A stretch of DNA of 64,000 nt from Vogesella urethralis (lineage in GTDB: Bacteria; Pseudomonadota; Gammaproteobacteria; Burkholderiales; Chromobacteriaceae): positions 62,001 to 126,000 of the forward strand of contig NZ_VMDW02000075.1 of the NCBI RefSeq assembly GCF_007644045.2, written 5' to 3'. Shown here piece after piece: positions 5,815-64,000 of the stretch (its first letter is position 1; every line of letters begins with the position of its first letter). Position numbers and translations under genes: made by a program. The notes under the pieces were generated by a model. The model saw nothing but the letters and a program-made list of their open reading frames with translations, was not told the DNA's origin and made no database searches.

Positions 5815-5930
5815 CGCGGCAGGGTTGGCCGCAAACGGGCTTGGCTGGCTGAGAGCAAATGCTCTATTTCGTTGGATTTTATCGTGCTGCTTGGGCGATA
5901 ATGCCGGCCATCTAAATGGAGAGATGTGTA

Positions 5931-7193
5931 ATGCGTTGTCTGGATGATTTCCGTCTGCGTCTGGCGGGCAAGGAACTGGTGCCCATCATGCAGGGCGGTA
6001 TGGGGGTGGACATTTCCACCGCGTCACTGGCGCTGGAAGTGGCTCGCCTGGGTGGTATCGGGCATATTTCCGACGCCATGCTGCCTACCGTAGCGGATCG
6101 TCGCTATAACACCAAGTACGTCAAGAACAAGCTGAAGCAGTACAAGTTCAACGTCGAGAATACCGACAAGTCGGTGGTGAAGTTCGATCTGGACGAGGTG
6201 GCAGAGTCTACCCGCCTGCACGTCGAAGCCACCATGAAAGCCAAGCAGGGTGATGGCCTGATCTTCATCAACTGTATGGAAAAACTCACCATGAACGCGC
6301 CCAAGGACACCTTGCGCGTGCGCATGCGCGCAGCGATGGATGCCGGTATCGATGGCATCACGCTGGCGGCAGGCTTGCACCTCGGTTCGTTTGCACTGAT
6401 CGAAGACCACCCGCGCTTCCGCGAGGTGCAGCTGGGCATCATCGTGTCGTCGGTACGGGCCTTGCAACTGTTCCTGAAGAAAACCGCGCGTACCCAGCGC
6501 CTGCCCGACTACGTGGTGATCGAAGGCCCGCTGGCCGGTGGCCACCTGGGTTTCGGCATGGATTGGGAAAACTACCGCCTGGAAGATATCCTGGTGGAAG
6601 TGCGCGACTGGCTGCAAGCTGAAGGCCTGGATATTCCGATCATCGCTGCCGGTGGCGTGTTTACCGGCGCCGACGCCGTGCGCATGCTGGAACTGGGCGC
6701 CAAGGGCGTGCAAGTGGCTACCCGCTTTACCGTGACCCGCGAGTGCGGCCTGCCGGACAAGATCAAGCAGGAGTACTTCCGCGCTGACGAAGATGACATC
6801 GAAGTCAACCAGCTATCGCCAACTGGTTACCCGATGCGCATGATCAAGCAGTGCCCCGCCATCGGCGACGGCATTCGCCCCAACTGCGAAGCCTACGGCT
6901 ACCTGCTGGATGCCAGCGGCAGCTGCCAGTATATCGAGGCGTACAACCGTGAAGTAGCGGCCCATCCGGGCGAGCGCCGTGTCAAGGTGATGGACAAAAC
7001 CTGCCTGTGCACCCACATGCGCAACTTCGACTGCTGGACCTGCGGCCACTATACCTATCGCCTGAAAGACACCACCCACCGCCTGGCCGATGGCAGCTAC
7101 CAGCTGCTGACCGCCGAACACGTGTTCCGTGACTACCAGTTCACTACCGAAGGCGTAGCCTTGCCGGCGCTGGAAGAAGTGTGCCTTGCCTGA
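5931..7193 (+). CDS. Nitronate monooxygenase-like FMN oxidoreductase with Cys-rich tail
   Basis: 420 residues from ATG 5931, chosen because GGAGAG lies 7 bases before it; an in-frame ATG at 5916 overlaps that site. The TIM-barrel part carries the family marks of 2-nitropropane dioxygenase / FabK-like flavoproteins: PIMQGGMGVDIS near the start, VVIEGPLAGGHLGFG in the middle (catalytic His region) and PIIAAGGVFTGADAVRMLELGAKGVQVATRF for FMN phosphate binding. The last about 90 residues are unusual, with six to seven cysteines (CPAI, RPNCEAYGY, CLCTHM, DCWTCGHY), suggesting a metal or Fe-S site absent from classical nitronate monooxygenases. Reaction and substrate are not known. Confidence 0.75.
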   Translation: MRCLDDFRLRLAGKELVPIMQGGMGVDISTASLALEVARLGGIGHISDAMLPTVADRRYNTKYVKNKLKQYKFNVENTDKSVVKFDLDEVAESTRLHVEATMKAKQGDGLIFINCMEKLTMNAPKDTLRVRMRAAMDAGIDGITLAAGLHLGSFALIEDHPRFREVQLGIIVSSVRALQLFLKKTARTQRLPDYVVIEGPLAGGHLGFGMDWENYRLEDILVEVRDWLQAEGLDIPIIAAGGVFTGADAVRMLELGAKGVQVATRFTVTRECGLPDKIKQEYFRADEDDIEVNQLSPTGYPMRMIKQCPAIGDGIRPNCEAYGYLLDASGSCQYIEAYNREVAAHPGERRVKVMDKTCLCTHMRNFDCWTCGHYTYRLKDTTHRLADGSYQLLTAEHVFRDYQFTTEGVALPALEEVCLA

Positions 7194-7240
7194 GCGAGGT
7201 AGCGCGTTGCGGCCAACCTTGGCCGTAGCGCCCGCAAAAC

Positions 7241-7273
7241 AACCCCCCCCTGCACTAACAGTGCAGGGGGGTT
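7241..7273 (+). terminator. Intrinsic terminator after the nitronate monooxygenase-like gene
   Basis: A long C-rich arm ending CCCCTGCAC, loop TAACA, and GTGCAGGGGGG followed by TTTG. It sits between the flavoprotein gene and the convergent TSUP gene and may serve both. Confidence 0.75.
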
Positions 7274-7293
7274 TGCTGTTGCATGCCGTATGG

Positions 7294-8381: not shown

Positions 8382-9068
8382 ATGACCCCGATGATGTCGC
8401 TGTTCGTCAGCAAGTTCCTGTTTGTGGCCGCCGCTTTGCTGCCCATCATCAACCCGCCCGGCCTGGTGCCGTTTTTCATTTCGCTCACCGCGCACAATAC
8501 CCAGCCGCAGCGCGCCTTTCTGGCGCGCCGCATCGCCATTTACTGCTTCCTGCTGTTGCTGGGCAGCATGTATATCGGTGGCTTCGTGCTCAGTTTCTTT
8601 GGTGTGTCGCTGCCGGTAGTGCAGCTGTCGGGTGGTTTGCTGATCACGTTTGCCGCCTGGCGCATGCTGAACGATGCGCCGGCCGAAGCGTCGCCGGGTG
8701 TCGAGAAGATCGAAAACCGCGAGGTGCTGAAGCAGCGCGCCTTCTACCCGCTAACCTTTCCGCTGACAGTGGGGCCGGGCTCGATCTCGGTGGCCATTAC
8801 GGTGGGGGCATCGCTCAGTAGTGCTGGCCGCGGCCTGGAAAAATTTGCCGTAGCACCGTTGGCCGCCGTGGCGGCGGTGGCGGCCATTAGTGTGCTGACC
8901 TGGTGGTGCCTGACGCATGCCGACAAGCTGATGCGTTACCTGGGCCGTACCGGTTCGGTGGTGTTTCTGCGCCTGACGGCCTTCATCTTGCTGTGCCTGG
9001 GGGTGCAGATCATCTGGGAAGGTTTTTCCGGTCTGGTGGAGCCGCTGCTCAAGAGCATCGGCAAGTAA
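8382..9068 (+). CDS. MarC family (UPF0056) integral membrane protein
   Basis: 228 residues, six predicted membrane segments. The family motif LLPIINPPGLVPFFISLT lies at about residues 18-35 and is repeated in weaker form at about 125-145 (YPLTFPLTVGPGSISVAI), the pseudo-repeat of MarC/SnatA proteins. SnatA of Thermococcus is described as a neutral amino acid transporter, while E. coli MarC has no clear function. Start ATG 8382 is closest to the upstream edge; ATGs at 8391 and 8394 are possible. Followed by its own terminator. Confidence 0.82.
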   Translation: MTPMMSLFVSKFLFVAAALLPIINPPGLVPFFISLTAHNTQPQRAFLARRIAIYCFLLLLGSMYIGGFVLSFFGVSLPVVQLSGGLLITFAAWRMLNDAPAEASPGVEKIENREVLKQRAFYPLTFPLTVGPGSISVAITVGASLSSAGRGLEKFAVAPLAAVAAVAAISVLTWWCLTHADKLMRYLGRTGSVVFLRLTAFILLCLGVQIIWEGFSGLVEPLLKSIGK

Positions 9069-11130: not shown

Positions 11131-11168
11131 ACGCTTGCGGCCAACCAGGCAAGGTTGGCCGCAAGCGT
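11131..11168. repeat. Inverted pair of the dispersed GGTTGGCCGC motif (16-bp perfect stem)
   Basis: ACGCTTGCGGCCAACC at 11131-11146 and its exact complement at 11153-11168, six-base loop. The 381-base space 11063-11443 between terC-like and the Lrp gene holds the terC terminator and this hairpin; nothing else was recognised in it apart from the Lrp promoter region that must lie near its right end. Confidence 0.85.
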
Positions 11169-11941: not shown

Positions 11942-11976
11942 TGCGGCCAACCTGGCGCGTGGCAAGGTTGGCCGCA
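11942..11976. repeat. Inverted pair of the dispersed GGTTGGCCGC motif
   Basis: TGCGGCCAACCT at 11942-11953 and AGGTTGGCCGCA at 11965-11976, 11-base loop, 13 bases after the Lrp stop codon. It can fold into a 12-base hairpin in RNA of either strand and may end transcription of the Lrp gene, though no T-run follows. Confidence 0.75.
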
Positions 11977-12920: not shown

Positions 12921-12980
12921 GAAAAAAGCCGTAAGACAGGGTTGGCCGCCATTGTAGCGCATCCCTGTCGCCGGCCGCGA

Positions 12981-13019: not shown

Positions 13020-14147
13020 TTACGATTTCTTGCTGCGCTTCAGCGTGGCCGGGGTGCAATTCTGCACGGCGGTGGCGTAGCTGGTGTTCTTGATCGAGGT
13101 GTAGTACAGGCGGCAGGCTTGTACTTCGTTTTGCCAGGTCTGCTGGCAGCTGCTCATGGTGGCTTTGCCGTCGGCGGCCGGGTTCTTGCCCATGGCGGCT
13201 TGCCAGCACGACACGGTCAGGTCCTGACGCATGATGCTGATGCCCTGGCTGTCGCTGCCGGCATTCCAGATCAAGCTGGGGTGGTTGCCTACCGCCACCG
13301 GTACCTTCTGGTTATTGCCCAGGTCCAGCGTGAACTGGTCGCCCACTTTCAGCGTGCCCAGCTTGAACTGCTTGGCCAGCCACTGGCGCGCCGGGCTGCC
13401 CAGCACCACCATCGGCCGCGGCTGGGTAGTGCCGGCTTTGGGGGCGGTCCAGCGTTGCATCAGCGCCAGCGTGTACGGTGTAAACGTGTCGTAGACGCCG
13501 TCCAGCTTGCTGCCGGCGTTGGCCGGAGCGGCGATCGGGGCGATGTCGTCGATGGTCTGGTACAGCGCGTTCTGGCGCACGTCCACACCGTTGAAGCCAA
13601 GCAGGTTGCCCCAGCGGATGGTGGTGGCGGCGCTCAGGTAATCCTGGGTGTCGTTCAGCACGGTATCGGGCGGGAAGTGCAGCAGTTGCACGGTGGCATG
13701 GTTGCGCATGGCCATGCCCAGCGTCAGGAAGAAACGCCAGTCGGTTTGCCACAGCGGCGTCTGCTTCAGCTCTTCCGCTTTGGCGTAGCCGATGTCGGCT
13801 ACGTCCAGATAGCCTTGCACCACTTCACGGTAGTCGTCCGGCGCCGGGTACTTGTTGGCGTCAGGGTGGGCCGGGTCTGTATCGCGTACCAGTTCGGCAA
13901 TCAGGCGGTCGTCACGGCGGAAGACGCGTACCGGCGAGGTGTAACCGTCGCGACTGACGCTCTGGCCCAGCCAGTGTTCCACCGTTTGTTCCAGCGAGTT
14001 GGCCGGCGCAGGGCAGTTGTAGCTGCAGTTGGGGTAGGAGAACAGCTTGCCTACGCGGTCGGCGCTGCCAAGGTCGATTTCCAGGTTGGCCGCAAAGGCG
14101 GCTTGGCCCAGTAGCAGGCTGGTGGCGATGAGGAGGCGGCTTGTCAT
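13020..14147 (-). CDS. Hypothetical periplasmic protein, kinase-linked
   Basis: 375 residues. The first about 20 form a Sec signal peptide (MTSRLLIATSLLLGQAAFA, cut before ANLEID). The mature part has eight or more cysteines, including a NCSYNCPAP pair near the N-terminus and several near the C-terminus, so disulfides are likely. I do not recognise the family; no catalytic motif is visible. It begins 10 bases after the stop codon of the MASE1 hybrid kinase on the same strand, so the two are probably co-transcribed and it may be a sensory or effector partner of that kinase. Function unknown. Confidence 0.7.
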   Translation of the reverse strand: MTSRLLIATSLLLGQAAFAANLEIDLGSADRVGKLFSYPNCSYNCPAPANSLEQTVEHWLGQSVSRDGYTSPVRVFRRDDRLIAELVRDTDPAHPDANKYPAPDDYREVVQGYLDVADIGYAKAEELKQTPLWQTDWRFFLTLGMAMRNHATVQLLHFPPDTVLNDTQDYLSAATTIRWGNLLGFNGVDVRQNALYQTIDDIAPIAAPANAGSKLDGVYDTFTPYTLALMQRWTAPKAGTTQPRPMVVLGSPARQWLAKQFKLGTLKVGDQFTLDLGNNQKVPVAVGNHPSLIWNAGSDSQGISIMRQDLTVSCWQAAMGKNPAADGKATMSSCQQTWQNEVQACRLYYTSIKNTSYATAVQNCTPATLKRSKKS

Positions 14148-20609: not shown

Positions 20610-20705
20610 CGCATTGTGCGATTGCTTTGCCTGGCAAGTTGGCCGCAGATGCGGTGCAGCCATGCCCGGGCAGGGCGCAGCGTGGCCGCCCTGCCAAAGT
20701 GGCCG

Positions 20706-21677: not shown

Positions 21678-21950
21678 GCCGGGTACCTTATGCGTTTGTG
21701 CGGCCAACCTGGCTGTCGGCGCTTATGGGTCGGGGCAGGGTATGTCTGCATTGTTGTCTTTGTGCCCGGGCTTTGCCAGCCTGGGCAGGCAAGGGAGGGC
21801 GGCCCGCCCCGTCGCGCCGGCACCGTCACATCGTACTGGCTGGCATTTATTGCCAGCGATGCGCGGCCCGGCAGCAGGCTTGCGGTGCCGCCGGCTTGAA
21901 AACGGCGACATTGCGGCCATCTGCCTGTTTTGCCCTAGAGAGCGGAGCCT

Positions 21951-31965: not shown

Positions 31966-33366
<1,401 letters not shown>

Positions 33367-43883: not shown

Positions 43884-43964
43884 AATGACTTGGCGTTAGG
43901 TTGCGTTGGCAAGGCGCGGAGTGTAGCAGCTAGCGGCCTTGCGGCCAACCTTGCCGGTGCGATG

Positions 43965-50621: not shown

Positions 50622-51718
50622 CGCGCCGCTCCGCCCTGGCTGACACGCACGCTGTCGCCGTCATTCAGGAAGCCGCCGCCGCTTTTTACCAGCGCCACGT
50701 TGCGGTCGGTTTTGCCCAGTAGCTCCACCTCGTTGCCTTGCCTGCGGCCAACCTTTACCTCGCGCTGGCGCACCAGGTTGCCGGCTTGCAGTTCGAATAC
50801 ATACTGGCGCCCGTCGCGCACGGTGACGGCACTGGCCGGTACGGTGTAGGCCAGTTGCTGGCCCAGGTTCAGCTGGCCGCTGGCGTACATGCCGGCGCGG
50901 GCGCTGCTGTTACCGGCCAGGTCGATATAGGCCAGCGCCAGACGGTTGCTGCTGTCCAGCGCCGGTGCCAACTGACGCACGCGGCCGCTGGCGGTTTTGC
51001 CATCGGGCAGCTGCAGCGTGGCCTGCATGCCCGGCTTGATGCTGGACAGCTGGCTGGCGTCCACTTCGGCGCGCCATTCCAGCCGTTGCTGCCGCTGCAA
51101 TGTAAACAGCTCGGTACCGCTGGCCACCACCTGGCCCAGCTGCGCGCTGCGCTTGGTGATGACGCCATCGTCGCTGGCAGTAATGCGGGTGTGGCCCAGC
51201 GTGATGCGGCTGGCGGCCAGCTTGGCCTTGGCGGCGGCAACGTCGGCCTCGGCGGTTTGCAGTGCCTGCGCGTACTGTTCGATCTTCTGCGCCGACAGCG
51301 CGCCGCTATCGGCCACCGCGCGGGCGCGGTCAAGGTCGCTGCGGGCGGCGCCCAGCGCCACGCGGGCCTGCTTCAGCCCGGCTTCGTTCTGGCGGATGTC
51401 GGTCTGGATGCTGTCGGCAAACAGCTCGGCCAGCACCTGGCCTTTCCGTACCACGGTACCGACGTCGGCGTGCAGCGCGGTAATGCGCAGGCCGCCGGTT
51501 TCGGCGCTGATGCTGGCTTCCTGCCAGGCATGGATGCCGCCGCTGAGGGCCAGCGTCTGCGGCCAGATGCGCGGCTGGATGCGGATGGTTTCTACCGCCA
51601 GCGCGCTGGCGCGTGCCGGCGTAGCCTGGGCGGCACGCGCCGGGGTTTGCCACAGGGCGACGGGCAGGAGCAGGGCGGCGCCGACCAGACCGGCGAGGGC
51701 GAGATGCTGCTTTTTCAT
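50618..51718 (-). CDS. RND efflux periplasmic adaptor (membrane fusion protein)
   Basis: 366 residues with an N-terminal signal or anchor helix (ALAGLVGAALLLPVALWQ). Lipoyl halves VSISAETGGLRITALHADVGTVVRKGQVLAEL and ITASDDGVITKRSAQLGQVVASGTELF flank a helical hairpin (about 110-180), then beta-barrel and membrane-proximal domains (VDASQLSSIKPGMQATLQL, YTVPASAVTVRDGRQYVF, VKVGRRQGNEVELL). This is the HlyD/AcrA-type adaptor that links the pump to the outer-membrane channel. It overlaps both neighbours by four bases. Confidence 0.9.
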   Translation of the reverse strand: MKKQHLALAGLVGAALLLPVALWQTPARAAQATPARASALAVETIRIQPRIWPQTLALSGGIHAWQEASISAETGGLRITALHADVGTVVRKGQVLAELFADSIQTDIRQNEAGLKQARVALGAARSDLDRARAVADSGALSAQKIEQYAQALQTAEADVAAAKAKLAASRITLGHTRITASDDGVITKRSAQLGQVVASGTELFTLQRQQRLEWRAEVDASQLSSIKPGMQATLQLPDGKTASGRVRQLAPALDSSNRLALAYIDLAGNSSARAGMYASGQLNLGQQLAYTVPASAVTVRDGRQYVFELQAGNLVRQREVKVGRRQGNEVELLGKTDRNVALVKSGGGFLNDGDSVRVSQGGAAR

Positions 51719-53100
51719 GAGGCTTGGCTTTCACTTGGGGTGGTCCAGCCGCCGCCCAGCGCCTTGTACAAGGCCAGGGTATACAGCAGGCGGTCGCGCT
51801 GGAGGGTAATCAGGTCTTGCTGGCTGCTGATGCTGCTGCGCAGGGCGCTGCCCAGCTCCAGCACGCTGGCGCTGCCGGCTTGCCACTGGCGGTTGACGGC
51901 CGTCAGCTGGCCGCTGGCCAGGCGATAGCGGGCGGCCAGCGCACTTTCACGCTGCCGGCTGCTGTCTACGCGTACCAGTGCTTGTTCTACTTCTTGTACC
52001 GCGCTGCGGACGCTGCTCTGGTAGCTGGCCAGCGCCTGGCGGTAACTGGCCTGTGCCTGGGTGACGGCGGCCTGACTGCTGCCACCATCGAACAGGGGCA
52101 GGCTAAGGCCGGGGCCCATCTGCCAGCTGCTGTGTTGCTTGCCCTGGCTGCGGCTGACGCTGAGCGTGCCGCTGAGGCTGAGCTGCGGGTAGCGGGCGGC
52201 CTCGGCCACGCCGATGTCGGCGCTGGCGGCGGCCAACTGGCGCTCGGCGGCTTGCAGGTCGGGGCGCTGGCGCAGCAGGTCGGTCGGCACGCTGTCTACC
52301 TGCAGGTTGGCCGCAGCGGGTAGCCGTGCCGGTTCGCTGGCCAGCAGCGCGCGCAGTTCGGCTTCCGGCATGCCGCTGATGGCGACCAGCGCTTTCAGGT
52401 ACACCTCGGTCTCGGCTTGCTGCGCCAGCAGGGTGTTGTCGGCGCTGGCCAGCGCGGCTTCGGCATCGGCACCGTCTACCGCCGAGGTAAAGCCGGCGCT
52501 TACCAGTCCGCGGGTCGCCTCGGTGCTGGCCTGTTGCGACTGCCGCGCCAGCTGGGCCAGTTCCGCCAGTAGCTGGCTGGCACGGTAGTTCACGTAGTAG
52601 TTGGCCAGCTCGGCCGCCAGGCTGGCGCGGGCGTCGTGCCAATCGGCCTCGCTGGCTTGCAGGCGGGCGCTGGCCGCTTCGCGGTTGCGCTGCAGCTTGC
52701 CCCACAGGTCGATTTCCCAGCTGGCGTCCAGCGCGCTGCTGCGGGTAGTGCCGCTGCCGCGCTGGCGGGTAGCACTGGCACTAAGGCTGGCCGTCGGCAC
52801 GCCGGCCAGCGCCGCACTGTCGACGTCGGCACGGGCGCTGTCGATGGCGGCCAACGCGCTCTGCAGCGACGGATGCTGTTGTTCGGTGACGGTCAGCAGG
52901 CGGTGCAGTACCGGGTCGTCCAGTTGCTGCCACCAGTCCAGCAGGCTGGCCAGCTTGCCGTCGTGGGCTTGCGGTGCTTGCCACTGGCTGGCCAGCGGCG
53001 GGGTTGGGGCGGTATAGGCCGGGCCAACCGTGGCGCAGCCGCCCAGCAGGGTGAGTGCAGCCAGTAGCGGCAACAGCCGGTAGCAGGCGGGTATGGTCAT
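51715..53100 (-). CDS. RND efflux outer-membrane channel lipoprotein (NodT/OprM family)
   Basis: 461 residues. N-terminal lipobox LTLLGGCATVGP, so acylated at that Cys. Then PPLASQWQAP, DPVLHRLLTVTEQQHPSLQSALAAIDSARADV and DASWEIDLWGKLQRNREAASARLQASEADWHDARASLAAELANYYVNYRASQ, all OprM/NodT marks, and the second repeat RPDLQAAERQLAAASADIGVAEAARYPQLSLSG. It forms the trimeric TolC-like exit duct. It is the first gene of the three-gene operon, with the promoter in the 282-base space 53101-53382. Confidence 0.92.
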   Translation of the reverse strand: MTIPACYRLLPLLAALTLLGGCATVGPAYTAPTPPLASQWQAPQAHDGKLASLLDWWQQLDDPVLHRLLTVTEQQHPSLQSALAAIDSARADVDSAALAGVPTASLSASATRQRGSGTTRSSALDASWEIDLWGKLQRNREAASARLQASEADWHDARASLAAELANYYVNYRASQLLAELAQLARQSQQASTEATRGLVSAGFTSAVDGADAEAALASADNTLLAQQAETEVYLKALVAISGMPEAELRALLASEPARLPAAANLQVDSVPTDLLRQRPDLQAAERQLAAASADIGVAEAARYPQLSLSGTLSVSRSQGKQHSSWQMGPGLSLPLFDGGSSQAAVTQAQASYRQALASYQSSVRSAVQEVEQALVRVDSSRQRESALAARYRLASGQLTAVNRQWQAGSASVLELGSALRSSISSQQDLITLQRDRLLYTLALYKALGGGWTTPSESQAS

Positions 53101-53382: not shown

Positions 53383-54129
53383 ATGAACAAGCCAAGGCCG
53401 CTTTGGCGGTGCATCATCTTGCTGGCCGGTTTGCTGGCGGTTTGTCTGCCAGCTGCACAGGCGGTGGAAGCGCCGCCGCCGCTGCGCATCCTGCTGCGCG
53501 AAAAGCCGGCAGCGGAGGGGCAGACGCCGCAAGGGGAAGGCTTCCAGCCAGCGCTGGGCCGTTTGCTGGCGGACCGGCTGGGCTACGCGCCGGTACTGCT
53601 GTCGCTGCCGCGCAAGCGGCTGGCCACCGCGTTGGAAAGTGGCGAAGGCGACCTGCTGTGCGGCTATATGCCGGACTGGTTGCCGGGGCCGTTTCGCTGG
53701 AGCCAGGGCTTTATCGATGTCAGCGATCTGCTGGTGAGCACCACGCGAACCCGGGCGCCAGCGCAGCTCCGCCAACTGGCCGGCAAGCCGGTGGGCACGC
53801 TCAGCGGCTATCGTTACCCGTTGCTGGAGCAGCAACTGGGCCGCCACTTCGTACGCAGCGACAGTACGTCGGTGAAGACCAGCCTGCAGCGGCTGCTGGC
53901 CGGTCGTTACGATTACGCGGTGGTGGGCGAGGCGGCGTTGCGCTACTACCTGCAGCACGACTTTCCGCGCCTGCCGCTGAACCCGCCACAGGTGATACAG
54001 CGGGTGCAGGCGCGCTGTGCCTTGTCGCCGCAGGCGCCGTTGCAGTTGGCGGAACTGGAACAGGCGATCGAGCGCATCCAGCGCGACGGCAGCTACGCGG
54101 CGCTACTGGCGGCCAACCCCTGGCATTAG
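53383..54129 (+). CDS. Periplasmic solute-binding-like protein (SBP_bac_3 type)
   Basis: 248 residues from ATG 53383 with GGGGGGCAG just upstream. Signal peptide of about 28 residues (CIILLAGLLAVCLPAAQAVE). The mature part reads like a small family-3 binding protein: LRILLREKPAAEGQTPQGEGFQPALGRLLADRLGY, GEGDLLCGYMPDW, GKPVGTLSGYRYPLLEQQLGRHFVRSDSTSVKTSLQRLLAGRYDYAVVGEAALRYYLQ. Such stand-alone proteins occur as sensors or amino-acid binders; no transporter genes are near. Ligand unknown. Confidence 0.75.
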   Translation: MNKPRPLWRCIILLAGLLAVCLPAAQAVEAPPPLRILLREKPAAEGQTPQGEGFQPALGRLLADRLGYAPVLLSLPRKRLATALESGEGDLLCGYMPDWLPGPFRWSQGFIDVSDLLVSTTRTRAPAQLRQLAGKPVGTLSGYRYPLLEQQLGRHFVRSDSTSVKTSLQRLLAGRYDYAVVGEAALRYYLQHDFPRLPLNPPQVIQRVQARCALSPQAPLQLAELEQAIERIQRDGSYAALLAANPWH

Positions 54130-55086: not shown

Positions 55087-55665
55087 ATGTTAAGCGTCAT
55101 GCTGGTCAACGATGGCTCCGGCAAGGCCGCCGCGCTGAAGGAAGCGCTGGCGGCAGCAGGCGTGCGCGTGGTGGCCGAGGTGGCGGCCAACCTGCAGCTG
55201 GCCGACATGCTGGCTGCCGCCCGGCCCGACGTAGTGCTGATCGACAGCGACGCGCCGTCGCGCGACATGCTGGAGCAGGTGTGCGTGATGGGCGCCCGCC
55301 ACGGCCAGCCGGTGGTGATGTTCACCGACGACAGCCGCCGCGACACCATCCGCGCTGCGCTGTCGGCCGGCGTGGCCGCCTACGTGGTGGGCAGCGTGGA
55401 AGCGGCACGCATCCAGCCCTTGCTGGAGGTGGCCATCGAGCGTCACCAGCTGGAGCAGACACGGCGTAGCGAGCTGGCCAGCGCGCAGCAGCAGCTGGCC
55501 GAGCGCAAGGTGATCGAAAAAGCCAAGGGCCTGCTGATGCAGATGAAAGGCCTGGACGAGCAGACTGCCTACAAGCAGCTGCGCGAACGCGCGATGCAGC
55601 AGCAAAAGCGGCTGGCCGACGTGGCGCAGGAGATCATCAGCCTGGCCGAATGGCTGCAAGGCTGA
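55087..55665 (+). CDS. nasT: NasT-like ANTAR antitermination regulator
   Basis: 192 residues. N-terminal receiver-like domain (LSVMLVNDGSGKAAALKEALAAAGVRVVAEV, DVVLIDSDAPSRDMLEQV) followed by a coiled linker and a C-terminal ANTAR domain (LAERKVIEKAKGLLMQMKGLDEQTAYKQLRERAMQQQKRLADVAQEIISLAEWLQG). In Azotobacter and others, NasT binds paired hexaloop hairpins in leader RNAs of nitrate assimilation operons and prevents termination, while NasS holds NasT when nitrate is absent. Matching leaders lie at 55768 and 59063. No nasS gene is seen beside it. AGGACAGG lies upstream of ATG 55087. Confidence 0.92.
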   Translation: MLSVMLVNDGSGKAAALKEALAAAGVRVVAEVAANLQLADMLAAARPDVVLIDSDAPSRDMLEQVCVMGARHGQPVVMFTDDSRRDTIRAALSAGVAAYVVGSVEAARIQPLLEVAIERHQLEQTRRSELASAQQQLAERKVIEKAKGLLMQMKGLDEQTAYKQLRERAMQQQKRLADVAQEIISLAEWLQG

Positions 55666-55909: not shown

Positions 55910-57172
55910 ATGAAAACGCGTCAGCAACCCGATACCCAAACCCTGGCGGCCGCCCGCCGCGACTTTCTCAAGGGAGCCTTGTCACTGATGGCCTCTACCG
56001 CCTTGCCCGCCGGCTTTGCCCTGCAAGCGCTGGCTGCCCCTGTGGGCAAACCGGAAAAAACCGAAGTCAAGGTGGGGTTCATCCCGCTGACCGACTGTGC
56101 TTCGGTGATCGTGGCCTCGAAGATGGGCTTCGACAAGAAATACGGCATCACCATCGTGCCGTCCAAGGAAGCCAGCTGGGCGGCAGTACGCGACAAGCTG
56201 GTCAACGGCGAGCTCGACGCCTCGCACGCGCTGTACGGCATGATCTACGGCGTGCACCTGGGCGTGGGCGGCCCCAAGAAAGACATGGCGGTGCTGATGA
56301 CGCTGAACCAGAACGGCCAGGGCATCACGCTTTCCAACCAGCTGAAAGAGAAGGGCGCCACCACCGGCCCGGCGCTGGCCAAACTGATCAAGGCCGAGCC
56401 GCGCGAGTACACCTTCGCCCAGACCTTCCCCACCGGTACCCACGCCATGTGGCTGTATTACTGGTTGGCCGCGCACGGCGTCAACCCGCTGACCGACGTG
56501 AAAACCATCGTGGTGCCGCCGCCGCAGATGGTGGCCAATATGCGCGTAGACAATATGGACGGCTACTGCGTGGGCGAGCCGTGGAACGCCCGCGCCATCG
56601 CCGACGGCATCGGCTTCAGCGTGGCCACCACGCAGCAGATCTGGCCCGATCACCCTGAAAAAGTGCTGGGCACCACCGGCGACTGGGTGAAACAGAACCC
56701 CAATACCGCCCGCGCGCTCGTGGCAGCGCTGCTGGAAGCCTCGCGCTACATCGACGACGTGAAAAACCGCGCTGCAGTAGCCAAGCTGATTTCCGACAAG
56801 GCCTATGTCAACGCGCCGGAGCCGGTGATCGAAGGCCGCTTCCTGGGCGCCTACGAAGATGGCCTGGGCAAGAAATGGCAAGACCCCAAGCTGATGAAGT
56901 TTTTCGACGGCGGCAAGGTCAACTTCCCCTACCTGTCCGACGGCATGTGGTTCCTGACCCAGCACAAGCGCTGGGGCCTGCTGAAAGCCGACCCCGACTA
57001 CCTGGCGGTGGCCAGGCAGATCAACCAGATTGCGGTCTACAAGGACGCCGCCACCATGGCCCGCGTGCCGGTGCCGGCCAGTGACATGCGCAGCAGCAAG
57101 CTGATCGACGGCGTGGTGTGGGACGGCAAGAATCCGGCGGCCTACGCCGCCAGCTTCAAGATCAAGGCCTGA
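55910..57172 (+). CDS. nrtA: Nitrate ABC transporter substrate-binding protein (NrtA/CmpA-like), Tat exported
   Basis: 420 residues from ATG 55910 with TAGGAGC 7 bases upstream. A twin-arginine signal with AARRDFLKGALSLMASTALPAGFALQALA (about residues 14-45) leads into the NrtA/CmpA fold: KTEVKVGFIPLTDCASVIVASKMGFDKKYGITI, LDASHALYGMIYGVHLGVGG, NQNGQGITLS, TFPTGTHAMWLYYWLAAHGVNPL and NMRVDNMDGYCVGEPWNARAI. It binds nitrate or nitrite in the periplasm. It is the first gene of nrtABD, behind an ANTAR leader. Confidence 0.9.
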   Translation: MKTRQQPDTQTLAAARRDFLKGALSLMASTALPAGFALQALAAPVGKPEKTEVKVGFIPLTDCASVIVASKMGFDKKYGITIVPSKEASWAAVRDKLVNGELDASHALYGMIYGVHLGVGGPKKDMAVLMTLNQNGQGITLSNQLKEKGATTGPALAKLIKAEPREYTFAQTFPTGTHAMWLYYWLAAHGVNPLTDVKTIVVPPPQMVANMRVDNMDGYCVGEPWNARAIADGIGFSVATTQQIWPDHPEKVLGTTGDWVKQNPNTARALVAALLEASRYIDDVKNRAAVAKLISDKAYVNAPEPVIEGRFLGAYEDGLGKKWQDPKLMKFFDGGKVNFPYLSDGMWFLTQHKRWGLLKADPDYLAVARQINQIAVYKDAATMARVPVPASDMRSSKLIDGVVWDGKNPAAYAASFKIKA

Positions 57173-57183: not shown

Positions 57184-58062
57184 ATGACCGTTGCCAAACC
57201 CGTTGCGGCCAACCTGGCATTGCCGCGCCGCCGCAAGCCGGCGTCGCCGGTAGCCCGCCTGGCCGCCACCCCGCTGGTGGCACCGCTGGTGCCGCTGCTG
57301 CGCGCCGTGGTGCCGCCCTTGCTGGGCCTGCTGGCCTTTCTGTTGCTGTGGACGCTGGTGTCGCAACTGAGCAAGGGCAGCCTGCCCGGCCCGGTCAGCA
57401 CCTGGGCCTCGGCACGCGAACTGTTTGCCGACCCGTTCTACCAGAACGGCCCCAACGACCAGGGCATAGGCTGGAACATCCTGATGTCGCTGGGCCGTGT
57501 CGGCGCCGGTTTCGGCATGGCGGCGCTGGTGGGCATTCCGCTGGGCTTCATGATCGGCCGCTTCGATTTTCTGGCGCGCATGACGGCGCCGGTGATCAGC
57601 CTGCTGCGCCCGGTCAGCCCGCTGGCCTGGCTGCCGATCGGCCTGCTGGTGTTCAAGGCCGCCAGCCCGGCATCGATCTGGGTGATCTTCATCTCCAGCA
57701 TCTGGCCGATGATCCTCAACACCGCCGCCGGCGTGCGCGCCGTACCGCAGGACTACCTGAACGTGGCGCGCGTGCTGCGGCTGTCGGAGTGGAAGGTGTT
57801 CAGCGTCATCCTGCTGCCGGCCACGCTACCGCACATGCTGACCGGGGTGCGGCTGGCGGTGGGCACGGCCTGGCTGGTGATCGTGGCCGCCGAAATGCTC
57901 ACCGGCGGCGTGGGGCTGGGCTTCTGGGTGTGGGACGAATGGAACAACCTGAACGTGGAGCACATCCTGATCGCCATCTTCGTGGTGGGGCTGGTGGGCT
58001 TGTTGCTGGAACAAGCCCTGGTATGGCTGGCGCGCAAGGCCAGCTTCGGGCAGGAGAACTGA
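57184..58062 (+). CDS. nrtB: Nitrate ABC transporter permease
   Basis: 292 residues from ATG 57184 with GAGGAGG upstream. Membrane segments from about residue 40 on; the EAA loop region reads VISLLRPVSPLAWLPIGLLVFKAASPASIWVIF and AVPQDYLNVARVLRLSEWKVFSVILLPATLPHMLTGVRLAVGTAWLVIVAAEML, typical of BPD permeases for nitrate/taurine/bicarbonate. End IFVVGLVGLLLEQALVWLARKA. It makes the membrane channel of the NrtABD importer. Confidence 0.92.
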   Translation: MTVAKPVAANLALPRRRKPASPVARLAATPLVAPLVPLLRAVVPPLLGLLAFLLLWTLVSQLSKGSLPGPVSTWASARELFADPFYQNGPNDQGIGWNILMSLGRVGAGFGMAALVGIPLGFMIGRFDFLARMTAPVISLLRPVSPLAWLPIGLLVFKAASPASIWVIFISSIWPMILNTAAGVRAVPQDYLNVARVLRLSEWKVFSVILLPATLPHMLTGVRLAVGTAWLVIVAAEMLTGGVGLGFWVWDEWNNLNVEHILIAIFVVGLVGLLLEQALVWLARKASFGQEN

Positions 58063-58063
58063 C

Positions 58064-58855
58064 ATGGACCGCTTTGTCGAGCTGGAAAACATCCACAAGC
58101 ACTTTGATACCAAAAAAGGCCGCTTCGTCGCGCTGCAGGACGTCAACCTCACCATCCGCCAGGGCGAGTTCGTGTCGCTGATCGGTCACTCCGGTTGCGG
58201 CAAGTCCACGGTGCTCAACATCATCGCCGGCCTGCTGGACCCGAGCGACGGCATTGCGCTGTGCAACGGCCGCGAAATCGACGGCCCCGGCCCCGAGCGC
58301 GCGGTAGTGTTCCAGAACCACAGCCTGCTGCCATGGCTCACTTGCTACGGCAACATCCTGCTGGCGGTGGAGCGCGTGTTCGGCAGCAAGGAAAGCAAGG
58401 CACAGTTGGCCGCACGCACCGATGAGGCGCTGGCGCTGGTGGGCCTGCAGCATGCCCGCGAGAAGCACCCGCACGAGATCTCCGGCGGCATGAAGCAGCG
58501 GGTGGGCATTGCCAGGGCGCTGGCGATGGAGCCCAAGGTGCTGCTGATGGATGAGCCGTTCGGCGCGCTGGACGCGCTGACCCGTGCCAACCTGCAGGAC
58601 GAGATGGTGAAGATCGTCGACAAGACCGGCAGCACGGTGGTGATGGTGACGCACGACGTGGACGAGGCGGTGCTGCTGTCCGACCGTATCGTGATGATGA
58701 CCAACGGCCCGGCCGCCACCGTGGGCGACATCCTGCACGTCGACCTGCCACGGCCGCGCAACCGGTTGGCACTGGCCAGCGACCCGGCCTACCACGCCTG
58801 CCGCAGCGCGGTGCTGGACTTCCTGTACCAGAAGCACAAACGGGAAGCGGCCTAG
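58064..58855 (+). CDS. nrtD: Nitrate ABC transporter ATPase
   Basis: 263 residues, beginning one base after nrtB. Walker A GHSGCGKST, Q-loop VFQNHSLLPWLT, signature EISGGMKQRVGIARALAMEPKVLLMDEPFGALDAL with Walker B, and His switch VTHDVDEAVLLSDRIVMMTNGP. The single ATPase domain without a substrate-binding fusion is NrtD/TauB-like, not NrtC. It powers nitrate/nitrite uptake. Terminator at 58889-58912. Confidence 0.92.
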   Translation: MDRFVELENIHKHFDTKKGRFVALQDVNLTIRQGEFVSLIGHSGCGKSTVLNIIAGLLDPSDGIALCNGREIDGPGPERAVVFQNHSLLPWLTCYGNILLAVERVFGSKESKAQLAARTDEALALVGLQHAREKHPHEISGGMKQRVGIARALAMEPKVLLMDEPFGALDALTRANLQDEMVKIVDKTGSTVVMVTHDVDEAVLLSDRIVMMTNGPAATVGDILHVDLPRPRNRLALASDPAYHACRSAVLDFLYQKHKREAA

Positions 58856-58912: not shown

Positions 58913-59034
58913 CATTGGCGTGTCTGGCTGCGCCGCCTCGGGGCAAGCAGGGTGGCATGCCGCAAACTGGTGCGGCCGTGCACCAGCCACAGGCCAGGTT
59001 GGCCGCAAAAGCGGCGGAAACGGACCTGCCAGGC

Positions 59035-59206: not shown

Positions 59207-61639
59207 ATGGACAAACCCAAACTGGTCATGGTGGGCAACGGCATGGCCGGCGTGCGCACGCTGGAAGAGCTGCTGCGGCTGGCGCCCGACGCCTACGACA
59301 TCACCGTGTTCGGCGCCGAGCCGCACCCCAACTACAACCGCATCATGCTGTCGCCGGTGCTGACCGGCGAACAGACGCTGCCCGATATCGTGCTGAACGA
59401 CCTGGACTGGTACGCCGGGCACGGCGTCACGCTGCACCTAGGCCAGCCGGTGGTGGCCATCGACCGTGCCCGCCGTGTGGTGCACGCCGCCGACGGCCAC
59501 AGCGTGCCGTACGACCGGCTGCTGCTGGCTACCGGTTCCAGCCCGTTCATCCTGCCGGTGCCGGGCAAAGACCTGCCCGGCGTGGTGACCTTCCGCGATA
59601 TTGCCGACGTGGAAACCATGATCGCCGCTGCGGCCAATCATCGCCACGCGGTGGTGATCGGCGGCGGCCTGCTGGGGCTGGAAGCCGCCAACGGCCTGCT
59701 GGCGCGCGGCATGCAGGTAACGGTAGTGCACCTGGGCGAATGGCTGCTGGAGCGGCAGCTGGACCGCACGGCGGCCAACTTGCTGCAACAAAGCCTGGAA
59801 GCCAAAGGCCTGCGCTTTTTGCTGCAAACGCAGACCGCAGCACTAGTGGCCGGCGCCGACGGCCGTGTGGCCGAGGTGCAGTTCCGCGACGGCAGCAGCG
59901 TGCCGGCCGAGCTGGTGGTGATGGCGGTGGGCATCCGCCCCAACTACGCACTGGCCGAAGCCAGCGGCCTGTACTGCGACCGTGGTGTGGTGGTGAACGA
60001 CCACCTGCAAACCTTCGACCCGCGCATCTACGCGGTGGGCGAGTGCGTCAGCCACCGTGGCGTCAGCTACGGCCTGGTGGCGCCGCTGTTCGACATGGCC
60101 AAGGTGGCGGCCAACCATCTGGCGCGCTTCGGCATTGCCCGCTACGTACCGGCGGCCACCAGTACCAAGCTGAAGGTCACCGGCATGGACGTGTTTTCGG
60201 CCGGCGATTTCATGGGCGGCGACGGTTGCGAGGACATCACGCTGTCTGACCCGGTAGGCGGCATCTACAAGCGGCTGGTGGTGAAGGACGACAAGCTGGT
60301 CGGCGCCTGCCTGTTCGGCGACACCGCCGACGGCGCCTGGTACTTCCGCCTGATCCGCGAGCAGCAGCCGGTACACGCCATCCGCGAACAACTGATGCTG
60401 GGCGAGGGCGCGGTGGGCGACACCGGCCACCAGGGCCAGAACCGTGCCGCTGGCCTGCCGGACGACGCCGAAGTGTGCGGCTGCAACGGCGTGTGCAAAG
60501 GCACCATCGTCAAGGCCATCCAGGAAAAAGGCCTGTTTACCGTCGACGACGTGAAGAAGCACACCAAGGCGGCCAGCTCCTGCGGCTCGTGCAGCGGGCT
60601 GGTGGAGCAGATCCTGATCAGTTGCGTCGGCGGCGCCGCCGACGTGAAGCCCAAGTCGGAAAAGCCGGTCTGCGGCTGCAGCGACATCACCCACGGCCAG
60701 CTGCGGACCGCCATCCGCGAACAGCATCTGACCAGCCTGGCCGACACCTTCCGCGTACTGGGCTGGCGCAGCCCGGACGGCTGTGCCACGTGCCGCCCGG
60801 CGGTGAACTACTACCTGATTTCCAGCTGGCCCGGCGAGGCGCGCGACGACCCGCAGGCGCGTTTCATCAACGAGCGCGTGCACGCCAACATCCAGAAGGA
60901 CGGCACCTACTCGGTGGTGCCGCGCATGTGGGGCGGCGTCACCAACCCGGCCGAATTACGGCGTATTGCCGACGTGGCCGACAAGTACGCCATTCCACTG
61001 GTGAAGGTGACCGGCGGCCAGCGCATCGACCTGCTGGGCGTGAAGAAGGAGGACCTGCCGGCGGTGTGGCGCGAGCTGGACATGCCGTCCGGCCACGCCT
61101 ACGGCAAGAGCCTGCGCACGGTGAAAACCTGCGTCGGCAGCGAGTTCTGCCGCTTTGGCACCCAGGATTCCACCCAGATGGGCATCGACCTGGAAAAAGA
61201 CCTGTTCGGCATGTGGAGCCCGGCCAAGGTGAAACTGGCGGTGTCCGGCTGCCCGCGCAACTGCGCCGAATCCGGCATCAAGGACGTGGGCATCATCGGC
61301 GTGGACTCCGGCTGGGAGCTGTACATCGGCGGCAACGGCGGCATCAAGACCGAGGTGGCCGAGTTCTTCTGCAAGGTGAAAACGCACGACCAGGTGATGC
61401 AGTACAGCGGTGCTTTCCTGCAGCTGTACCGCGAGGAAGCGTTCTACCTGGAGCGCACCGTGCACTTTTTGCAGCGGGTAGGCATGGACTACATCAAGCA
61501 GCGCGTGCTGGACGATGCGGTCAACCGCAGCGAGCTGTACGCGCGGCTGAAGTTTGCGCTGTCGTTCGAGCAAGACCCGTGGGCCGAACGCTACCAAGGC
61601 GGCGTGGCGCAGCACGAGTTTGCGCCGCTGACGGTGTAG
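59207..61639 (+). CDS. nirB: Assimilatory nitrite reductase large subunit
   Basis: 810 residues from ATG 59207 (GGAAAGGAC upstream). N-terminal FAD/NAD(P) domain (LVMVGNGMAGVRTLEELL, AVVIGGGLLGLEAANGLL), two BFD-like [2Fe-2S] segments (VCGCNGVCKGTIVKAI and SCGSCSGLVEQIL; VCGCSDITHGQLR and GCATCRPAVNYYL), then the ferredoxin-like repeat and siroheme-[4Fe-4S] site with TCVGSEFCRFGTQDS and SGCPRNCAES. It reduces nitrite to ammonium with NADH/NADPH in the cytoplasm, together with NirD. First gene of the second nitrate operon. Confidence 0.95.
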   Translation: MDKPKLVMVGNGMAGVRTLEELLRLAPDAYDITVFGAEPHPNYNRIMLSPVLTGEQTLPDIVLNDLDWYAGHGVTLHLGQPVVAIDRARRVVHAADGHSVPYDRLLLATGSSPFILPVPGKDLPGVVTFRDIADVETMIAAAANHRHAVVIGGGLLGLEAANGLLARGMQVTVVHLGEWLLERQLDRTAANLLQQSLEAKGLRFLLQTQTAALVAGADGRVAEVQFRDGSSVPAELVVMAVGIRPNYALAEASGLYCDRGVVVNDHLQTFDPRIYAVGECVSHRGVSYGLVAPLFDMAKVAANHLARFGIARYVPAATSTKLKVTGMDVFSAGDFMGGDGCEDITLSDPVGGIYKRLVVKDDKLVGACLFGDTADGAWYFRLIREQQPVHAIREQLMLGEGAVGDTGHQGQNRAAGLPDDAEVCGCNGVCKGTIVKAIQEKGLFTVDDVKKHTKAASSCGSCSGLVEQILISCVGGAADVKPKSEKPVCGCSDITHGQLRTAIREQHLTSLADTFRVLGWRSPDGCATCRPAVNYYLISSWPGEARDDPQARFINERVHANIQKDGTYSVVPRMWGGVTNPAELRRIADVADKYAIPLVKVTGGQRIDLLGVKKEDLPAVWRELDMPSGHAYGKSLRTVKTCVGSEFCRFGTQDSTQMGIDLEKDLFGMWSPAKVKLAVSGCPRNCAESGIKDVGIIGVDSGWELYIGGNGGIKTEVAEFFCKVKTHDQVMQYSGAFLQLYREEAFYLERTVHFLQRVGMDYIKQRVLDDAVNRSELYARLKFALSFEQDPWAERYQGGVAQHEFAPLTV

Positions 61640-61790: not shown

Positions 61791-61806
61791 AAAAAGGAAA
61801 GCAAAC

Positions 61807-62121
61807 ATGAGCAACTGGAAAGCCGTCTGCCGCCTGGCAGACATCCCGCCGCAGGGCGCGCGGGTACTGAAACGGGCAGGGCAGGTCGATATCGCCGTGT
61901 TCCGCACCGTGGACGACCAGGCCTTTGCGCTGCTGGACCGCTGCCCGCACAAGGGCGGGCCGTTGTCGCAGGGCATCGTGTCCGGCCATCGCGTGGCCTG
62001 CCCGCTGCACAACTGGCACATCGATCTGGCCACTGGCCAGGCCTGCGCGCCGGACGAAGGCTGTAGCGGCCACATCCCGCTGAAGCTGGAAGACGGCACC
62101 GTCTATCTGGCGCTGGACTGA
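61807..62121 (+). CDS. nirD: Assimilatory nitrite reductase small subunit
   Basis: 104 residues from ATG 61807 with AGGAAAG 6 bases upstream. Rieske-like fold with CPHKGGPLSQGIVSGHRVACPLHNWHIDLATGQ: the C-x-H and C-x2-H pairs needed for a [2Fe-2S] cluster are all present, whereas many NirD proteins lack some of them. VFRTVDDQAFALLDR is conserved before it. It works with NirB. Confidence 0.92.
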   Translation: MSNWKAVCRLADIPPQGARVLKRAGQVDIAVFRTVDDQAFALLDRCPHKGGPLSQGIVSGHRVACPLHNWHIDLATGQACAPDEGCSGHIPLKLEDGTVYLALD

Positions 62122-62130
62122 GCACGGCAA

Positions 62131-62140
62131 GGTTGGCCGC
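62131..62140 (+). repeat. Copy of the dispersed motif beside the nasA ribosome binding site
   Basis: GGCAAGGTTGGCCGCAAGGAGC: the motif full consensus, ending directly in the AAGGAG used by nasA. One of about 16 intergenic copies; others by eye at 5823, 7209, 11137, 11153, 11943, 11966, 12940, 21700, 28322, 30311, 30339, 34998 (riboswitch), 40780, 43941 and 58997. Confidence 0.75.
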
Positions 62141-62151
62141 AAGGAGCGAGC

Positions 62152-64000
62152 ATGAATGACACAAGCGCATCGGATGGCGACATCGCCACTGTCTGCTGTT
62201 ACTGCGGTACCGGTTGTGGCGTGCGGGTAAGCCCGCAGCCGGATGGCAGTCTCCGGGTGGTGGGCGATGCGCAGCACCCGGCCAACTTCGGCCGCCTGTG
62301 CAGCAAGGGCCGTACGCTGGGGCAGAGCGTGGGCGTGGCCGGCAGCCGCCTGCTGCAGCCACAGCTGCGCACCGGCAAGGACGAAGCGCGCCAGCCGCTA
62401 AGCTGGGACAGCGCGCTGGACGCGGTCAGCAGCCGGCTCGCCACCACCCTTGCCGAGCATGGCCCGGACGCGGTGGGCTTTTACCTGTCCGGCCAGCTGC
62501 TGACCGAAGACTACTACCTGTTCAACAAGCTGGCGCGGGCGCTGGTGGGCACCAATAACGTCGATACCAACTCGCGGCTGTGCATGTCCAGTGCGGTCAG
62601 CGGTTATAAGCGCACGCTGGGCGCCGACGCGCCACCGGCTTGCTACGAAGACTTCGACCACGCCGGCTGCGTGTTCATCGCCGGCGCCAATATGGCGGTG
62701 GCGCACCCGGTGCTGTTCCGCCGGCTGGAGGCGGCGCGTGCGGCCAACCCGGCCATGAAAATCATCGTGGCCGACCCGCGCCGTACCGACACCGCCAGCC
62801 TGGCCGACCTGCACCTGCCGGTGTTGCCGGGCACCGACGTGGCGCTGTTCCACGCCATGCTCAACGTGATGATCTGGGAAGACCTGATAGACCGTGACTA
62901 CATCGCGCAGCACACCGCGGGCTTTGCCGCGCTGCGGGCGCGCTTGCGTGAGTACACGCCGCGCGCCGCCAGCCAGCTGTGCGGCGTGCACGAAGACGAC
63001 ATCGTCACCGCCGCGCGCTGGTTTGCCGCCAGCCCGGCCACGCTGTCCTGCTACACCATGGGGCTGAACCAGTACAGCAACGGCAGCGACAAGAACGCGG
63101 CGCTGATCCACCTGCACCTGGCCACCGGCCACATCGGCCGCCCCGGCGCCGGGCCGTTTTCGCTGACCGGCCAGCCCAACGCCATGGGCGGGCGCGAGGT
63201 AGGCGCGCTGGCCACGCTGCTGCCAGGGCACCGCGACCCGGCCAGTGCTGCCGACCGTGCCGAGTTGGCCGCGTTGTGGGGTGTGCCGGCGCTGCCGGCC
63301 AACCCCGGTCTGCCGGCCGTGGCGCTGTTCGAGGCTGCCGCCGCCGGGCGTATCAAGGTGTTGTGGATCGCCTGCACCGACCCGGCGTTTTCGCTGCCGG
63401 ACCAGGCGCTGGTGCGTGCCGCCTTGCAGAAAGTGGAGTGCGTCATCGTGCAGGAAGCGTTTGCCAGCAGCCACACCCTACCGTTTGCCGACATCGTGCT
63501 ACCGGCCGCCACCTGGCCGGAAAAAGACGGCACCGTCACCAACAGCGAGCGCCGCATCAGCCGCGTGCGTGCCGCGCTGCCACCGGCGGGGCAGGCGCGC
63601 GAGGACTGGCGCATCGTGGCCGACGTGGCGCAGCGCCTGGCTGCCTGCATTGCCCCGGAGCGGGCGGGCTTGTTTAGGTTTGCCGACGTGGCCGCCGTGT
63701 TTGCCGAGCACGCTGCCACCACCGCCGGGCGTGACCTCGACTACAGCCGGCTGGACTACGCGCTGCTGGACCGGCTGGGGCCGCAGCAATGGCCGTTTGA
63801 CGGCCAGCTTGGCCGCAGCAGGCTGTACGGCGATGGCGTCTACCCCACGCCCGATGGCCGCGCCCGCTTTGCCGACATCGGCTGGCAGCCGCCGGCCGAC
63901 AAGGTGTCGGCGCACTTCCCGCTGCGCTTGACTACCGGCCGCCTGCGCGACCACTGGCACAGCATGAGCCGTACTGCACTGGTGCCGGGTCTGACCCGCC
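62152..64000 (+). CDS. nasA: Assimilatory nitrate reductase catalytic subunit (partial at window edge)
   Basis: 616 residues are present; the frame runs off the right edge with no stop. Start ATG 62152 with AAGGAGCGAG before it. N-terminal [4Fe-4S] site CCYCGTGCGVRV with CSKGRTLGQSV, then molybdopterin oxidoreductase: NVDTNSRLCMSSAVSGYKRTLGADAPPACYEDFDHA, IIVADPRRTDTASLADLHL, GMNQYSNG-like GLNQYSNGSDKNAALIHLHLATGHIGRPGAGPFSLTGQPNAMGGREVG, and the start of the dinucleotide domain (FPLRLTTGRLRDHWHSMSRT). It reduces nitrate to nitrite with Mo-bisMGD, feeding NirBD. Any C-terminal [2Fe-2S] or FAD part lies outside the window. Confidence 0.94.
   Translation, partial: MNDTSASDGDIATVCCYCGTGCGVRVSPQPDGSLRVVGDAQHPANFGRLCSKGRTLGQSVGVAGSRLLQPQLRTGKDEARQPLSWDSALDAVSSRLATTLAEHGPDAVGFYLSGQLLTEDYYLFNKLARALVGTNNVDTNSRLCMSSAVSGYKRTLGADAPPACYEDFDHAGCVFIAGANMAVAHPVLFRRLEAARAANPAMKIIVADPRRTDTASLADLHLPVLPGTDVALFHAMLNVMIWEDLIDRDYIAQHTAGFAALRARLREYTPRAASQLCGVHEDDIVTAARWFAASPATLSCYTMGLNQYSNGSDKNAALIHLHLATGHIGRPGAGPFSLTGQPNAMGGREVGALATLLPGHRDPASAADRAELAALWGVPALPANPGLPAVALFEAAAAGRIKVLWIACTDPAFSLPDQALVRAALQKVECVIVQEAFASSHTLPFADIVLPAATWPEKDGTVTNSERRISRVRAALPPAGQAREDWRIVADVAQRLAACIAPERAGLFRFADVAAVFAEHAATTAGRDLDYSRLDYALLDRLGPQQWPFDGQLGRSRLYGDGVYPTPDGRARFADIGWQPPADKVSAHFPLRLTTGRLRDHWHSMSRTALVPGLTR

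Follow-up and report, generated by a model that had tools for sequence, protein, structure and literature searches.

The window analysed here, a 64-kb stretch of the genome of Vogesella, a water bacterium of the family Chromobacteriaceae (contig C103:62001-126000; genome label G000), is densely marked with a short word, GGTTGGCCGC, which by analogy with known systems is very probably the DNA uptake sequence (DUS) of this genus. The word is related to, but spelled differently from, the DUS of the Neisseriaceae, and very probably belongs to a lineage of dialects outside that family, probably homologous with the neisserial dialects and carrying CCG for CTG. The window contains 39 exact copies on the two strands, compared to a mean of 0.61 and a maximum of 3 in 100 dinucleotide shuffles. 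An earlier note, made by eye, had listed 38 positions, all of which were confirmed together with one that had been overlooked at 17580, and its figure of 16 intergenic copies is matched by our own gene calls (16/39). Across the whole draft genome (4,028,666 bp) there are 931 forward and 936 reverse copies, 1867 in total, whereas the reversed control has 9 and 8 (17 in total). The whole genome is thus enriched, and neither outcome that the earlier note had named as refuting it, counts near expectation or an enrichment limited to the window, was observed.

The unit behind these counts was defined by substitution. The 9-mer GTTGGCCGC occurs 59 times in the window, with G preceding 39 of these, and the 12-mer AGGTTGGCCGCA was found 82 times in a 0.50-Mb genome sample where 0.2 were expected. 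In the same sample, each of the 27 single substitutions inside the GTTGGCCGC part of AGGTTGGCCGCA occurred only 0 to 3 times, while substitutions at positions 1, 2 and 12 were tolerated (2 to 30 each), and flanking positions farther out than approximately three bases on the upstream side and one on the downstream side carried at most 0.1 bit each. These results define a strict core of 9 bp, GTTGGCCGC, which is not a palindrome and whose flanks, A(A)G before it and A after it, are soft; the full form of the word is A(A)GGTTGGCCGCA. The longer consensus that the earlier note had proposed was overstated, as the 18-mer GGCAAGGTTGGCCGCAAG is exact only four times in the window. A strict, genus-specific site with GGCC inside it could also be the target of a genus-specific methyltransferase or a HIP1-like hotspot of mismatch repair or methylation. 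However, nine fixed non-palindromic bases are long for a methylase site, the lack of a palindrome makes the HIP1-like option raised in the earlier note a worse fit, and this explanation, which we consider improbable, predicts neither the inverted hairpins near stop codons, nor the scarcity of cores in divergent regions, nor the changes in ComP loops that track the word, all described below.

Codon usage is excluded as the cause. The 0.50-Mb sample contains 441 cores, of which 342 lie within genes and 99 between or across genes (0.79 per kb genic versus 1.50 per kb intergenic), whereas synonymous-codon shuffling within 457 genes (200 trials) yielded a mean of 49.9 and a maximum of 69 genic cores, in agreement with the earlier note's argument that codon bias does not explain the word. 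The genic copies use several reading frames and both strands, and the readings AANL, RLAA and VGRI recur as that note had reported. Genes were defined by our own simple codon-based caller, which missed three Pfam-supported genes at window positions 17-2809, and the intergenic figures are therefore approximate.

The placement of the cores follows gene ends. Among 29 close pairs (neighbouring cores within 60 bp), 24 are inverted. Of the inverted pairs, four are genic and 20 intergenic, with the midpoint no more than 110 bp from a stop codon in 19 of the 20, again by our own gene calls. At least two inverted pairs run directly into five or more T, and all six that were chosen by hand for folding were more stable than every one of 200 shuffles. 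Cores are densest in convergent intergenic regions (2.5 per kb), intermediate in tandem regions (1.5-1.8) and scarce in divergent regions (0.42; 4 in 9.5 kb). The inverted pairs are thus predicted to be able to form hairpins at gene ends, where they may contribute to termination. That inverted pairs fold as strong hairpins in such places would also be expected of a terminator or attenuator family (REP-like) that had spread without a role in uptake. However, most copies are single, because 342/441 cores but only 9/29 close pairs are genic, and the flanks show no conservation farther than about three bases before the core and one after it, making it very improbable that the word is a terminator family of this kind.

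Strand and replicon were also informative. The earlier note had suggested mapping the strand of the copies, and orientation proved balanced: with guanine-cytosine (GC) skew as a proxy, 223 cores lie on the G-rich strand and 214 on the other (25 blocks of the genome sample), in line with the genome-wide split of 931 to 936. In a congener, only 7 cores were found in the 150 kb examined of a 164.5-kb plasmid, compared to 3236 in its 3.9-Mb genome including the plasmid, a scarcity partly explained by the lower G+C of the plasmid (50-53%). A polar chromosome-maintenance site (Chi, KOPS-like or bound by a nucleoid protein) would likewise be dense throughout the chromosome and scarce on a plasmid, but the absence of leading-strand bias and the variation of intergenic density with gene orientation fit it worse, and we regard this option, which the earlier note had raised in the form of a nucleoid-protein site, as highly unlikely. 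Together, the inverted pairs at gene ends, the scarcity in divergent regions, the lack of strand bias and the near-absence from a plasmid resemble the habits of the neisserial DUS, whose inverted pairs are associated with terminators according to excerpts of the DUS survey (PMC3630211).

To establish who carries the word, 399 genomes sampled from the order and 61 from the family (13 Vogesella and 48 others) were examined; family genera other than Vogesella are labelled g2, g3, g159-g164 and g4, with g2 taken as Chromobacterium. The genus Vogesella was assigned through a genome of that genus, G444, whose plasmid is identical, over the 20 kb compared, to NZ_CP085531.1 of Vogesella sp. XCS3 (Neisseriales, Chromobacteriaceae). 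Among the 399, GGTTGGCCGC was enriched only in the six sampled Vogesella (1406-1867 copies, versus at most 72 in any other genome). The comparison with related genera that the earlier note had proposed gave the same picture: the core GTTGGCCGC was enriched in 13/13 Vogesella (2312-3490 copies, at least 39 times the reversed control) and far lower in the other 48 family genomes (57-313, at most about four times the control).

Unsupervised k-mer counts in samples of the other genera recovered sister words, namely AGGTTGGCCGAA(G) in g164, g4 and a single g3 genome (G117), AGGTTGGCCGAA(A) in g163, AGGTTGGCCGAG in g160, and ACGTTGGCCGAA and GGTTGGCCGAAC in g161. Genome-wide, GTTGGCCGA was enriched in ten non-Vogesella genomes from six genera (G117, 1453 copies; G426, 2120; G427, 1780; G428, 889; G429, 2363; G312, 1291; G436, 2010; G437, 1220; G438, 321; G439, 1017), compared to 73-97 for the reversed control. 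It was near background in 19/19 g2, 4/4 g159 and 9/10 g3 genomes, and a weak excess was seen in 2/6 g162 genomes (G431, 308 versus 94; G434, 252 versus 87; four congeners, 57-138), where the excess is possibly the decaying remains of a word. No comparable word was found in the k-mer samples of Chromobacterium and the DUS-free g3 genomes. According to excerpts from Frye et al. (PMC3630211), none of five genomes from the genera Laribacter, Lutiella, Pseudogulbenkiania and Chromobacterium showed an obvious DUS, which agrees with our 0/19 for g2; Vogesella was not among their five. Among the papers listed by searches of open PubMed Central, none describes the Vogesella word. The G117 samples (L029, L181, L259-L264) also abound in another word, GTTTGCCGAA (32 in 148.5 kb versus 0.65 expected), alongside GTTGGCCGAA, a pairing that brings to mind the two dialects which parts of the same survey describe in Simonsiella (PMC3630211).

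Across the 399 genomes, the frame AGGNNNNCYGAA was strongly enriched (at least four times the control) only in G117, G312 and 10/11 genomes of a family, f44, which we take to be the Neisseriaceae because AGGCCGTCTGAA and AGGCAGCCTGAA appear in the samples from two of its members and its ComP proteins match the solved ones; milder rises, under twofold, occurred in other genomes. The frame AGG....C(T/C)GAA was not enriched in the six sampled Vogesella, whose word ends GCA. It was also not enriched in the eleventh f44 genome, G089 (44 versus 40), possibly through an independent loss. In genus g40 of family f37, AGGNNNNCYGAA was raised approximately 1.2 to 1.8 times (G082, 415 versus 235) with no ComP-model match listed, although these ratios may mean little, as single genomes of other families are similar.

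The receptor of the neisserial DUS is the minor pilin ComP, and Vogesella encodes an orthologue of it outside the window, at G000:C46:60833-61249 (L017:8831-9256, minus strand). This protein scores 35.8 bits on the Pfam ComP_DUS family PF16732 (curated cut-off 27.3), and its three best solved matches, 2nba, 2m3k and 5hz7, over residues 28-70 of 135, are all ComP. The mere presence of PF16732 does not discriminate, since it is matched in 61/61 family genomes; PF16734 gave no more than a sub-threshold match. A custom model of the globular part of ComP was more selective, with scores of at least 99 bits in 13/13 sampled genomes of Chromobacteriaceae and 10/11 of f44, 73 bits in G089, the lowest of the f44 genomes, and no more than 61.4 in all other families of the order among at most 11 candidates scored per genome; of the 23 genomes at or above 99 bits, 14 had contributed no row to the model. 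A ComP counterpart was found in 13/13 Vogesella. The comP gene adjoins a GspH-type gene and is convergent with genes for a secretin, shikimate kinase and dehydroquinate synthase, which we read as pilQ-aroK-aroB (L017, 4554-9825). Other pilin-like genes stand nearby in the g160, g164 and g4 loci, and comP seems to have moved between loci. Two f44 genomes each carry two equally scoring ComP genes (G375, C1:659609 and C1:1321044; G262, C130:31969 and C130:45014).

A link between word and receptor lies in the loops of ComP that nuclear magnetic resonance implicates in DUS binding, as described in excerpts of PMC12061091. In the loop that aligns with the neisserial beta 1-beta 2 loop, an assignment for the Chromobacteriaceae proteins that is itself suggested by alignment, the motif N(T/A/V)D occurs in 22/23 DUS-bearing and 0/23 DUS-free family genomes, and a second loop feature, a lysine before W, in 20/23 versus 0/23 (G427, with a lysine six residues before W, was scored negative). 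These counts leave out G409, G407, G430, G424 and G425 (no match in the stretch examined), candidates below 80 bits (G423, 16; G432, 14; G431 and G434, 58-59; a third G436 candidate, 15), and G404, G408, G416, G403 and G433; G436b was used and G436a left out, and G422 had only a 60-bit pilin. The sharpest contrast is within g3, where G117, the sole bearer of the word among ten genomes, has ANTDAG and the eight relatives examined have GNAR(A/N)D. In the ComP tree, the DUS-bearing rows do not form one clade, and DUS-free g2 and g3 proteins group with G117. Net charge of the globular part did not separate DUS-bearing from DUS-free genomes.

The Vogesella pilin with the highest score on PF16732 is a different one, encoded on G000:C146 in a run of minor-pilin-sized genes (80.4 bits). 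Its best solved relative is the PilE structure 4noa, no ComP structure is listed among its matches, and it was rejected as the receptor. A profile search of genome contigs with a PilE-type alignment was unspecific, with only L036 close among 80 loci. The higher score of this PilE-type pilin and the breadth of the Pfam family would suit an uptake sequence read by a pilin other than ComP, with the likeness to the neisserial DUS arising by convergence. In contrast, the best solved match of the C46 protein is ComP, and the loop changes that track the presence of a DUS sit in the C46-type protein, so that a different receptor is unlikely, if the least so of the alternatives considered here.

A number of observations weigh against a ComP-read DUS that is homologous with the neisserial one. 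All eight described DUS dialects share a CTG core, according to excerpts of PMC3630211 and PMC12061091, whereas the words here have CCG at those positions and core substitutions are nearly absent; as the CTG core fails, the Vogesella word is not to be classed as a Neisseriaceae dialect. The sister word AGGTTGGCCGAA matches the simDUS AGGCTGCCTGAA at 9/12 positions, for which the chance with a random 12-mer is approximately 0.007 (five dialects, either strand, five offsets), and the Vogesella word matches a neisserial dialect at only 8/12 (chance approximately 0.05); homology of the words is therefore likely, though sequence alone does not prove it. Past the signal motif, the Vogesella ComP carries just two cysteines and lacks the neisserial second pair, and its globular part shows no consistently positive net charge (-2 in the G000 protein, and from -2 to +5 across 12 tabulated Vogesella proteins). 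The Vogesella protein is itself a row of both custom models, the ComP model was built from 18 rows with at most 11 first-look candidates scored per genome, and an earlier model showed no clear gap between ComP-type rows (down to 102.5 bits) and the next row (101.2). The ComP tree is partly resolved, and the branch parting ComP from PilE-type pilins is weak (57/77). ComP orthologues are kept in DUS-free g2 and g3 species, so the presence of ComP alone does not predict a DUS, and ComEC says little, as it is above cut-off in only 11/13 Vogesella and matched in 12/14 control genomes. The loop features have exceptions too: N(T/A/V)D is found in 0/12 Neisseriaceae-type ComPs and is thus a trait of the Chromobacteriaceae dialects; G117, a single genome that provides the best contrast, carries the loop motif and lacks the lysine; the best ComP candidate of G436, with its many sister-word copies, lacks both features; and the two g162 genomes with a weak word excess have only 58-bit candidates without the motif. 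Finally, the rows are related to each other, and the loop counts are therefore not phylogenetically independent.

Set against these points, the genome-wide counts, the restriction to the genus, the related words in other genera, the inverted pairs near stop codons, the scarcity on a plasmid and a ComP orthologue whose loops track the word support the DUS-like interpretation offered in the earlier note. Under this interpretation, a ComP-family minor pilin of the type IV pilus would use its loops to bind double-stranded DNA that contains A(A)GGTTGGCCGCA, pilus retraction would pull the bound DNA through the PilQ secretin, ComEC would pass one strand inward, and recombination would place the allele, motif included, in the chromosome. 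Preferential uptake of self DNA that bears the motif could then spread and maintain the word throughout the genome, with inverted pairs presumably co-opted as terminator-like hairpins at gene ends, while related genera would use sister words such as AGGTTGGCCGAA and AGGTTGGCCGAG, forming a dialect lineage parallel to that of the Neisseriaceae.

The DUS-ComP pairing may be older than the Neisseriaceae, a scenario that we favour slightly. The ancestor shared with the Chromobacteriaceae would have had the frame AGG....C.GAA together with ComP, word and loops would have evolved jointly (first TTGGCCGAA, then GAG and GCA), and the word would have been lost in Chromobacterium and most g3, which kept a ComP with decayed binding loops. 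If true, the CTG core described as 'essential' would have been derived within a single branch. To our knowledge, few bacterial groups mark their own DNA for uptake. Another set of DUS-like words, divergent from the first and paired with orthologous receptors, would provide natural contrasts, among them genus g3 with the word in 1/10 genomes, for how ComP reads DNA, for the joint change of word and reader, and for the fate of a word-filled genome after its reader fails. Vogesella and the six related genera are also predicted to be naturally transformable, and their words would say how donor DNA must be marked.

Within the window, exact matches to GGTTGGCCGC are classed here as genic or intergenic by our own gene calls. 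Six of the 16 intergenic copies form inverted pairs: 11137..11146 (-, left arm) with 11153..11162 (+, right arm; hairpin of -35.3 kcal/mol), 11943..11952 (-) with 11966..11975 (+) between convergent genes, and the hairpin arms 30311..30320 (+) and 30339..30348 (-; -46.9 kcal/mol). The others lie at 5823..5832, 12940..12949, 58997..59006 and 62131..62140 on the plus strand and at 7209..7218, 21700..21709, 28322..28331, 34998..35007 (called intergenic), 40780..40789 and 43941..43950 on the minus strand. Genic copies are read most often as AANL (plus strand, 14084..14093, 19281..19290, 36240..36249, 50180..50189 and 52305..52314; minus strand, 39943..39952, 55183..55192 and 57205..57214) or AANP (plus, 17580..17589, the copy overlooked earlier, and 34044..34053; minus, 36817..36826, 54109..54118 and 62740..62749). 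Further readings are RLAA (23674..23683, +; 47815..47824, -), VGRI (44775..44784, -; 46827..46836, +), VGRR (50744..50753, -), AANR (30584..30593, -), AANH (60107..60116, -), GWPQ (41492..41501, +), VRPT (43155..43164, +) and WLAA (56463..56472, +). The 9-mer core alone is present on the plus strand at 2916..2924, 4514..4522, 8858..8866, 18931..18939, 20638..20646 (intergenic, after a tRNA-Tyr at 20486-20570), 23145..23153, 32959..32967, 36687..36695, 44195..44203, 45054..45062, 58405..58413 and 63264..63272, and on the minus strand at 20875..20883, 28520..28528, 30833..30841, 35688..35696, 48978..48986, 52229..52237, 52847..52855 and 59771..59779. The stretch at 17-5132 holds exopolysaccharide-type genes (SLBB, Wzz, glycosyltransferase family 4 and UDP-glucose dehydrogenase), no copy of GGTTGGCCGC and two cores; it may have been acquired, because the codon-based caller failed to recognise three of its genes.

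Among known systems, cyanobacterial HIP1 is also an abundant short chromosomal word but is a palindrome, which the Vogesella word is not. The uptake signal sequence (USS) of the Pasteurellaceae shares an abundant strict core of 9-10 bp and hairpins at gene ends and differs in sequence; its predicted receptor, as given in excerpts of the literature, is ComN/PpdA, which is different from ComP. According to excerpts of PMC12061091, the ComP proteins of N. meningitidis and N. subflava contain a pair of disulphide bridges, of which one links the DD-region to beta 1, whereas the Vogesella protein has a single cysteine pair. The long C-terminal insertion found in neisserial ComP is also missing from it. 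Like the solved ComP structures (Protein Data Bank 2nba, 2m3k and 5hz7), the Vogesella protein has the conserved (Y/F)K...WP segment and, from the alignment, a loop between the presumed beta 1 and beta 2. Similarly, the words here share with the DUS dialects (AG-DUS, simDUS and kingDUS) a length of 12 bp, an AGG start, C at position 8 and G at position 10, and the sister words also share the final AA, for which the Vogesella word has CA. Unlike the DUS dialects, they have TTGG before CCG and occur in another family, the Chromobacteriaceae, but they resemble them in their occurrence on both strands in many hundreds to thousands of copies, in their inverted pairs near gene ends and in the presence of a ComP orthologue.

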